A DNA stretch of 53,481 nucleotides from Candidatus Aenigmatarchaeota archaeon (lineage in GTDB: Archaea; Aenigmatarchaeota; Aenigmatarchaeia; QMZS01). Shown here piece after piece: positions 4,972-42,506 of this stretch. A program made the translations under genes and the position numbers. The stretch covers positions 1 through 53,481 of the forward strand of contig JAFGCN010000011.1 of assembly GCA_016932615.1 (NCBI GenBank). The letters are read 5' to 3'. Below the pieces are notes generated by a model that was not told the DNA's origin, searched no databases, and saw nothing but the letters and a program-made list of their open reading frames with translations. Each line of letters begins with the position of its first letter. The first letter of the stretch is position 1.

Positions 4972-5415
4972 CCCGCGGTGGCTCAATGGCTGAAGCTTTT
5001 TCTTTTAGAAAAAGAAAAAGCCCCATGCGCAAAAAGAAAAGGATTTTTCCGCTGCTTTGCAGCGATTATATCCCTTTAGCGCTTGAATTCCATTATAGAG
5101 CGTCCGGCTGTAGTGCAGGGCTTTCTTGCCTTGTGCGTTCGCTAACGCTTGACCGCAGGCACCGGAAGGTTGTGAGTGAACCCTTTTCTTGCGAAGAAAA
5201 GGCTTCAAGCCCAAAAAGAACCTGCATTTCGCCAAAGCGAAATGAGGCCTCATTTGCCTAGCGGCAAATGCAGGGCAGTTTACTGCTTCGCAGAAAGACT
5301 ACCGTAAGTTTGGCAGAAAGCGAAAGCTTCCGTTAAGCTTGCTTTTGGGGTGAAGACCTTTTTAGCCAAGATAACTGGAAAAGGTTTTCCACAAATTCAA
5401 CTCTCACCCGCGGGA
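4972..5415 (+). tRNA. tRNA-Tyr(GUA) with three BHB introns
   Basis: The mature tRNA is read from four exons: 4972-4991, 5096-5113, 5161-5176 and 5396-5415 (74 nt). Acceptor CCCGCGG pairs with CCGCGGG plus discriminator A, giving the archaeal tRNA-Tyr C1-G72. D-stem GCTC/GAGC, anticodon stem TCCGG/CCGGA with GTA at 5110-5112, T-stem GTGAG/CTCAC and T-loop TTCAACT all pair. Intron 1 (4992-5095, D-loop) has central helix ATGG/CCAT. Intron 2 (5114-5160, position 37/38) has CTGT/GCAG. Intron 3 (5177-5395, position 53/54, 219 nt) has TGTG/CACA. Each has 3-nt bulges cut after the second base. Introns make up about five sixths of the gene. Confidence 0.9.
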
Positions 5416-10365: not shown

Positions 10366-10504
10366 TGCGTCGACCGGGATTCGAACCCGGATTGTTGGCT
10401 ATCTTCTTGACCGTTGGAATCTGCTTCTTTTTGGTCCTGGAGCTTTTTCTTGCAAGAAAAAGCTTCAATGGAAGGCCAATGTCCTGCCATTAGACTATCG
10501 ACGC
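10366..10504 (-). tRNA. tRNA-Gly(UCC) with anticodon-loop intron
   Basis: Exons are 10504-10469 and 10400-10366. Acceptor GCGTCGA/TCGACGC with discriminator A, D-stem GTCT/GGAC, anticodon stem TTGGC/GCCAA and T-arm CCGGG-TTCGAAT-CCCGG all pair. The loop CTTCCA+A gives anticodon TCC. The 68-nt intron sits at the canonical 37/38 site, with a textbook BHB: central helix CTTC/GAAG and bulges CA^T and AT^A. The intron holds the shared hairpin core found in other tRNA introns here. Confidence 0.95.
10401..10468 (-). repeat. tRNA-Gly intron, member of the shared intron family
   Basis: In the tRNA sense the intron reads as a perfect hairpin (GAAGCTTTTTCTTG/CAAGAAAAAGCTTC-like), then GCTCCAGGACCAAAAAGAA and GCAGATTC. 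The 19-nt core is identical in the tRNA-Val(UAC) intron at 13273-13291 and in the copy upstream of rfcL at 42476-42494. Confidence 0.85.
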
Positions 10505-22434: not shown

Positions 22435-22585
22435 GGGCTCGTAGTCCAGCCCGGCTAAGACGCTTCCTTCACATGGAAGAGATCCCCAGTTCAAATGAAG
22501 CTTTTCTTTGCAAAAGAAAAGCCCCAAGCGCAAAAGAAAGCAGTTACCGCTTGCGCGAATATTCTTGAGAATCTGGGCGGGCCCA
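22435..22585 (+). tRNA. tRNA-Val(CAC) with T-loop intron
   Basis: Exons are 22435-22495 and 22572-22585. Acceptor GGGCTCG/CGGGCCC plus A, anticodon stem CTTCC/GGAAG around TTCACAT, and T-stem CCCAG/CTGGG all pair. The 76-nt intron is at T-loop 59/60, with BHB helix TTCA/TGAG (one G-U) and bulges AA^T and AA^T. Its hairpin and GCGCAAAAGAAAGCAG segment are a diverged version of the shared intron core. Confidence 0.94.
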
Positions 22586-42449: not shown

Positions 42450-42506
42450 GAATCTTTTTCTTTTGAAAAGAAAAAGCTCCAGGACCAAAAAGAAACCGCT
42501 CGATTC
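42450..42506 (+). repeat. Solo copy of the tRNA-intron-family element upstream of rfcL
   Basis: On the plus strand GAATC, a perfect hairpin (CTTTTTCTTTTGAAAAGAAAAAG), the 19-nt core GCTCCAGGACCAAAAAGAA (42476-42494), then ACCGCTC and a closing GATTC that pairs with the first GAATC. No tRNA exons flank it. It occupies the gap between rfcL (start 42445, minus) and the 42525 gene. On the rfcL transcript it would place a hairpin directly before the start codon. Confidence 0.75.

Follow-up and report, generated by a model that had tools for sequence, protein, structure and literature searches.

A tRNA-Tyr gene with three introns in an Aenigmatarchaeota genome and the repeated element found in two of them

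The window analysed here is a stretch of 53,481 nucleotides from a Candidatus Aenigmatarchaeota archaeon (contig JAFGCN010000011.1, assembly GCA_016932615.1). At positions 4972-5415 it holds the parts of a tRNA-Tyr separated by inserts. This raises the question of whether these parts make up one tRNA gene and, if so, where the sequences that interrupt it came from.

A tRNA-Tyr gene in four exons

A sequence-only reading had claimed a tRNA-Tyr(GUA) gene at this position, and direct reading of the DNA confirmed it, as a perfect cloverleaf is obtained once the gene is spliced. The three introns and the exon junctions of that reading proved exact, including the length and position of the 219-nt intron at 53/54. 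The gene is arranged as follows (BHB, bulge-helix-bulge; the element is described in the next section):

4972..4991, + strand: exon 1 (acceptor 5', D-stem 5' and part of the D-loop), from sequence, cloverleaf and BLAST
4992..5095, + strand: intron 1, in the D-loop, 104 nt, with an element copy at its start; BHB ATGG/CCAT
5096..5113, + strand: exon 2 (D-stem 3', anticodon stem 5', anticodon GTA), from cloverleaf and BLAST
5114..5160, + strand: intron 2, at the canonical 37/38 position, 47 nt, outside the repeated family; BHB CTGT/GCAG
5161..5176, + strand: exon 3 (anticodon stem 3', variable loop, T-stem 5'), from cloverleaf and BLAST
5177..5395, + strand: intron 3, at position 53/54, 219 nt, with a forward element at its start; BHB TGTG/CACA
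5396..5415, + strand: exon 4 (T-loop, T-stem 3', acceptor 3', discriminator A), from cloverleaf and BLAST

The joined exons read CCCGCGG TG GCTC AATGGCTTA GAGC G TCCGG CTGTAGA CCGGA AGGTT GTGAG TTCAACT CTCAC CCGCGGG A. They form 21 of 21 stem pairs, with anticodon GTA, the conserved positions kept and C1-G72, which is the archaeal tyrosine pair. ARAGORN identified the spliced sequence as tRNA-Tyr(gta). In the unspliced gene no tRNA was found by ARAGORN, even with introns of up to 3 kb allowed, nor by Rfam. The three proposed BHB motifs were likewise borne out, each possessing a 4-bp central helix and two 3-nt bulges at the junctions; the helices ATGG/CCAT and TGTG/CACA are Watson-Crick throughout, CTGT/GCAG includes one G-U pair, and the outer helix of the motif at 53/54 is weak. 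The cloverleaf score of the tRNA-Tyr was 30.6, against a best of approximately 24 in 11 dinucleotide shuffles with up to three BHB removals, a rough control as the greedy beam search behind it missed the real triple splice too. From these motifs, all three introns would be removed from the pre-tRNA-Tyr in the cell.

Alternatively, the locus might be a tRNA pseudogene in decay or a product of faulty assembly, with another tRNA doing the work, and the assembly, which is fragmented and 97% complete, could have missed an intact gene. An intact tRNA-Tyr elsewhere, with this locus silent, was also one of the two refuters named by the sequence-only reading; BLAST of the mature sequence against the whole genome matched these four exons alone, with no second tRNA-Tyr in the assembly. 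The complete set of stem pairs and conserved positions also speaks against decay. Furthermore, the tRNA-Tyr genes of two genomes of the same family (G006 and G007) are likewise interrupted by three introns, in the D-loop, the anticodon loop and the T-arm. Their T intron is a short form of approximately 27 nt at 59/60, 6 nt further on, containing CCAAAAGAA and TTGG, and a hand-spliced version was identified as tRNA-Tyr by ARAGORN (its D-loop junction was placed approximately). The same three-arm interruption thus recurs in independent genomes and is therefore no accident of assembly; we consider a pseudogene or artefact very improbable. The locus is probably the sole tRNA-Tyr gene (sole in the assembly) of a small-genome, DPANN-like archaeon, a confidence that belongs to the explanation favoured below as a whole.

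Interrupted tRNA genes and the element in their introns

The tRNA-Tyr gene was read correctly but had been treated as an isolated case, which it is not: two of its three introns are copies of an element repeated genome-wide. The Rfam tRNA model gave six above-threshold matches in the genome, every one spanning or ending at inserts, and no clean uninterrupted tRNA above threshold. Guided splicing resolved 17 tRNAs beyond Tyr (three Val, Gly, three Ser, Gln, three Ala, Asn, a tRNA with a CAT anticodon, Leu, Arg, Cys and Asp), with cloverleaf scores of at least 27, most of 28.6-30.4 and those of Cys and Asp among the lower. Approximately 30 tRNA loci were recognised in total, several of them resolved in part, so that no exact intron count is given. 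ARAGORN also reported an odd second tRNA-Asp(GTC) at G000:C17:42150-42227 (L008), with a long variable arm and a weak acceptor stem, which is possibly a pseudogene or the sole uninterrupted tRNA-like gene. Element-type introns are located at 59/60, 53/54, 37/38 and in the D-loop, and such introns are also carried by tRNAs of the relatives G002 and G008. Within the window, three further tRNA genes possess introns of this family:

10366..10504, - strand: tRNA-Gly(TCC), intron in the anticodon loop
13187..13338, + strand: tRNA-Val(TAC), intron in the T-loop at 59/60
22435..22585, + strand: tRNA-Val(CAC), intron in the T-loop at 59/60

The element common to the tRNA inserts consists of a hairpin (P1), of which GAAGCTTTTCTTTGCAAAAGAAAAGC is an example, with a CCAAAARGAA box after it. 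This hairpin and box pattern had 49 matches in the genome, against 8 for a reversed-pattern control. The strand that precedes the box (GACC, GCGC, CGTC, CCCC) is complementary to another close to the 3' end of its own intron; own-intron pairing scored 104.2 against 87.3 +/- 4.2 for swapped introns and was reached in 0 of 1000 swaps, a statistic that ignores the relatedness of the introns. In the tRNA-Tyr gene, a covariance model built from the hairpin and box matched intron 1 at 4992-5041 (E 4.5e-8) and the forward element of intron 3 at 5178-5224 (E 3.8e-12). Intron 3 contains a further part of the element, its inversion having been read by eye:

5342..5389, - strand: diverged inverted copy of the element end (CTTTTGGGGTGAAGACCTTTT...GGAAAAGGTTTTC)

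This inverted end has 29 nt in common with the intron of tRNA-Ala(TGC). Forward and inverted ends occur together in tRNA-Tyr intron 3 and at three loci of a relative (G061), most copies showing one end alone. A known ribozyme or riboswitch was considered for the introns and dropped, as an Rfam search at relaxed threshold matched no known RNA family; group I introns were dropped on size and for want of a match.

Could such introns have built up by ordinary means, that is, by vertical descent, duplication of tRNA genes together with their introns and the usual accumulation of BHB introns, with no mobile element? Part of the load does appear to be old and vertical, as the three-arm introns of tRNA-Tyr are kept across genera, and the three Val genes, which have T-loop introns in common, may be duplicates. 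When 22 introns were compared, however, 104 of 231 pairs were similar at E<1e-4, with identical runs of 29-33 nt between introns in different isotypes and at different positions. For example, the anticodon intron of tRNA-Gly and a T-loop intron of tRNA-Val share 32 identical nt. Near-identity between unrelated isotypes and positions, together with the element copies outside tRNA genes described below, makes this explanation quite unlikely. The reading that we judge likely is that the introns derive from a miniature inverted-repeat-like mobile element in tRNA genes and are spliced at their BHB motifs by the splicing endonuclease EndA.

Copies of the element across the class

Since a loose pattern proved uninformative over 95 relatives against their A+T-rich background, the covariance model was used instead. 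It gave 57 matches in the genome itself, most of them in tRNA introns, 30-31 in each of three relatives (G011, G032 and G061) and 22 in another (G089), and zero in 46 of the 95 genomes searched; given the A+T-rich, low-complexity P1 and the rough E-values, weak matches in other families may be due to chance. A strict DNA pattern matched named genomes at nine scattered places, all bacterial, which we attribute to chance. Among 13 genomes, a small and non-independent sample, element copy number was inversely related to the number of detectable tRNAs (Spearman -0.74, p 0.004).

Approximately 100 of the covariance model matches were placed in context: some lie within introns of tRNA genes or at tRNA 3' ends, others border protein genes or fall in a 23S rRNA insert. 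In G001 a 23S rRNA gene carries a copy (L209, approximately 1501-1546), which seems to occupy an rRNA intron. In two genera an element copy immediately adjoins the 3' end of tRNA-Cys, outside the tRNA itself (L086 in the genome itself; L138/L182 in G008). Copies at start codons are reversed relative to the gene, with 1-5 nt between them and the start codon of rfcS, rpl6, rps3ae and others, these gene names being presumptive and taken from our reading of the translations. Copies at stop codons are in forward orientation after the stop, the stop codon often being shared with the element. The window itself contains one copy of the former kind:

42450..42498, + strand: non-tRNA copy of the element, oriented against rfcL and lying 4 nt upstream of its start codon (ATG at 42445-42443, minus strand)

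In a ribosomal-protein operon of G061 (L212, 696-1518), the gap between rps8 and rpl6 is filled entirely by the element, with one end forward and one inverted: the rps8 stop codon TGA overlaps the forward element, and the inverted one stops a few nt before the rpl6 ATG. BHB splicing of intergenic copies was checked by hand and rejected, as the candidate motif would destroy the start codon.

These contexts bear on a second alternative, namely that the element is immobile and works, at transcript boundaries and at intron 5' ends, as a processing signal or a conserved functional RNA of the leader, trailer or terminator type. It could indeed be that the intergenic copies are not mobile DNA but conserved regulatory RNAs: they lie 0-5 nt from start or stop codons in fixed orientation, and one follows tRNA-Cys in both genera. 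In addition, the three host nt before the element are complementary to three nt inside it in 29 of 33 start and stop copies (permutation mean 11.3, maximum 19, relatedness uncontrolled). On the other hand, the genes that carry copies mostly differ between genomes, and the element is patchily spread, being absent from many families of the class. The gaps seen suggest a gene spacing so compact that any intergenic insert would abut codons. Tandem units within one intron also fit poorly with such a role; the T-loop intron of a tRNA-Arg gene in G002 (L153) contains three head-to-tail units GGGAACTTTTAGAAAAAGTTCCATCAAAAAAAGAA. On balance an immobile functional RNA seems unlikely.

For the mobile element favoured here, many similar and dispersed copies were found, and it is from such copies that we infer mobility; no clear target-site duplication was seen by eye. 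The D-loop and T-arm introns of tRNA-Tyr would then be members of a multicopy element made up of the P1 hairpin, the CCAAAARGAA box and a helix formed with the 3' portion of the intron. It would have spread through tRNA genes here and, in the class, have reached protein-gene gaps and a 23S rRNA gene too, most likely as DNA in the form of a miniature inverted-repeat-like element. Its survival in tRNA genes would follow from the fact that the insert can be spliced out.

The splicing endonuclease and comparable systems

EndA is encoded at G000:C18:45339-45839 (L134; PF01974 and PF02778 matched) and has one alpha-type core preceded by a charged N-terminal tail. It is closest to the enzymes of Methanocaldococcus and Nanoarchaeum. 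A lysine-rich insert, KLKRGPKS, has six residues extra relative to M. jannaschii, aligns with the N. equitans enzyme (3iey) and is kept in 10 genomes. The N-terminal tail is lysine/glutamate-rich, of approximately 130 residues, and varies in length among relatives. Neither a second EndA subunit nor a fused three-unit chain was found, with one PF01974 match per genome in the 10 family genomes with a match (E<=10), a search that a highly diverged beta subunit could escape. This EndA would cut the pre-tRNA-Tyr at its three BHB motifs, and the exons would then be ligated. In reviews, noncanonical introns are associated with endonucleases of the heteromeric (alpha-beta)2 or the epsilon2 type (PMC4090602, PMC12397907); because one EndA gene was found here, this rule is called into question. 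Lysine loops are described as giving crenarchaeal and ARMAN endonucleases their broad specificity (PMC12397907). ARMAN (Micrarchaeum) are likewise small-genome archaea with diverse intron positions, and their broad-specificity enzyme has such a lysine loop (PMC12397907), but the EndA described here combines a single alpha-type core with a Nanoarchaeum-like insert and is not a three-unit epsilon2 chain.

The sequence-only reading had placed the window outside Thermoproteales, and this part of it stands: genomes of relatives in the class are small (0.4-1.9 Mb), which with the likeness of EndA suggests a DPANN affiliation. Its second part, that multiple noncanonical introns are established mainly in Thermoproteales, needs correction, as they are not limited to that group. 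They are already reported for Nanoarchaeota and other groups (PMC4090602) and for ARMAN (PMC12397907). Interruption is near-total in Asgard genomes, with introns in 92-95% of the tRNAs of Atabeyarchaeia/Freyarchaeia, over half of these with several and often at noncanonical positions (PMC11291895). Intron transposition in Thermoproteales is known as well (PMC4090602), and Pyrobaculum calidifontis holds a record of 71 introns in 46 tRNAs (PMC8450103).

In Thermoproteales, as here, similar introns occur at several canonical and noncanonical positions across isotypes, with up to three per gene. Their tRNA introns were reportedly treated by Sugahara et al. 2008. The present lineage is a different one, and its class-wide hairpin and CCAAAARGAA element has copies also at protein-gene boundaries and in 23S rRNA (non-tRNA copies were examined in this class alone). 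Atabeyarchaeia/Freyarchaeia resemble the present case in their mostly interrupted tRNAs, multiple introns and noncanonical positions, but are Asgard archaea, and the part of the source available describes no common repeated element (PMC11291895). In Caldiarchaeum, heterogeneity of tRNA-Thr links archaeal tRNA intron gain to mobile DNA through plasmid-like integration (PMC3293823), at a single locus, whereas a short multicopy element is seen here. Eukaryotic introners (Roy et al. 2023, cited in PMC11782384) are likewise repeated and apparently mobile DNA elements that make many similar introns; they are spliceosomal, while splicing here would be of tRNA by BHB and EndA, with mobility judged from copies alone. 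In the open-access literature (subscription papers and preprints lying outside this scope), no report was found of one element common to tRNA introns and protein-gene boundaries.

In genomes of this kind, standard tRNA finders overlook nearly all tRNAs, so that the genomes appear tRNA-poor. Because related genomes carry the element within tRNA introns, in an insert of rRNA and between protein genes, and some families lack it, one can date when it was gained or lost and put its mechanism to the test; this makes the spread of archaeal introns concretely testable. The route by which BHB introns reach new tRNA sites has been stated to be unknown (PMC4090602). One tentative answer, which we hold at somewhat less than an even chance, is an archaeal introner, a DNA-mobile element entering near gene boundaries and RNA genes and carrying or generating a complement to its flank, such that a new insertion in a tRNA gene would have a ready BHB and be spliced from the start. 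If true, it would account for the appearance of archaeal tRNA introns at new sites.
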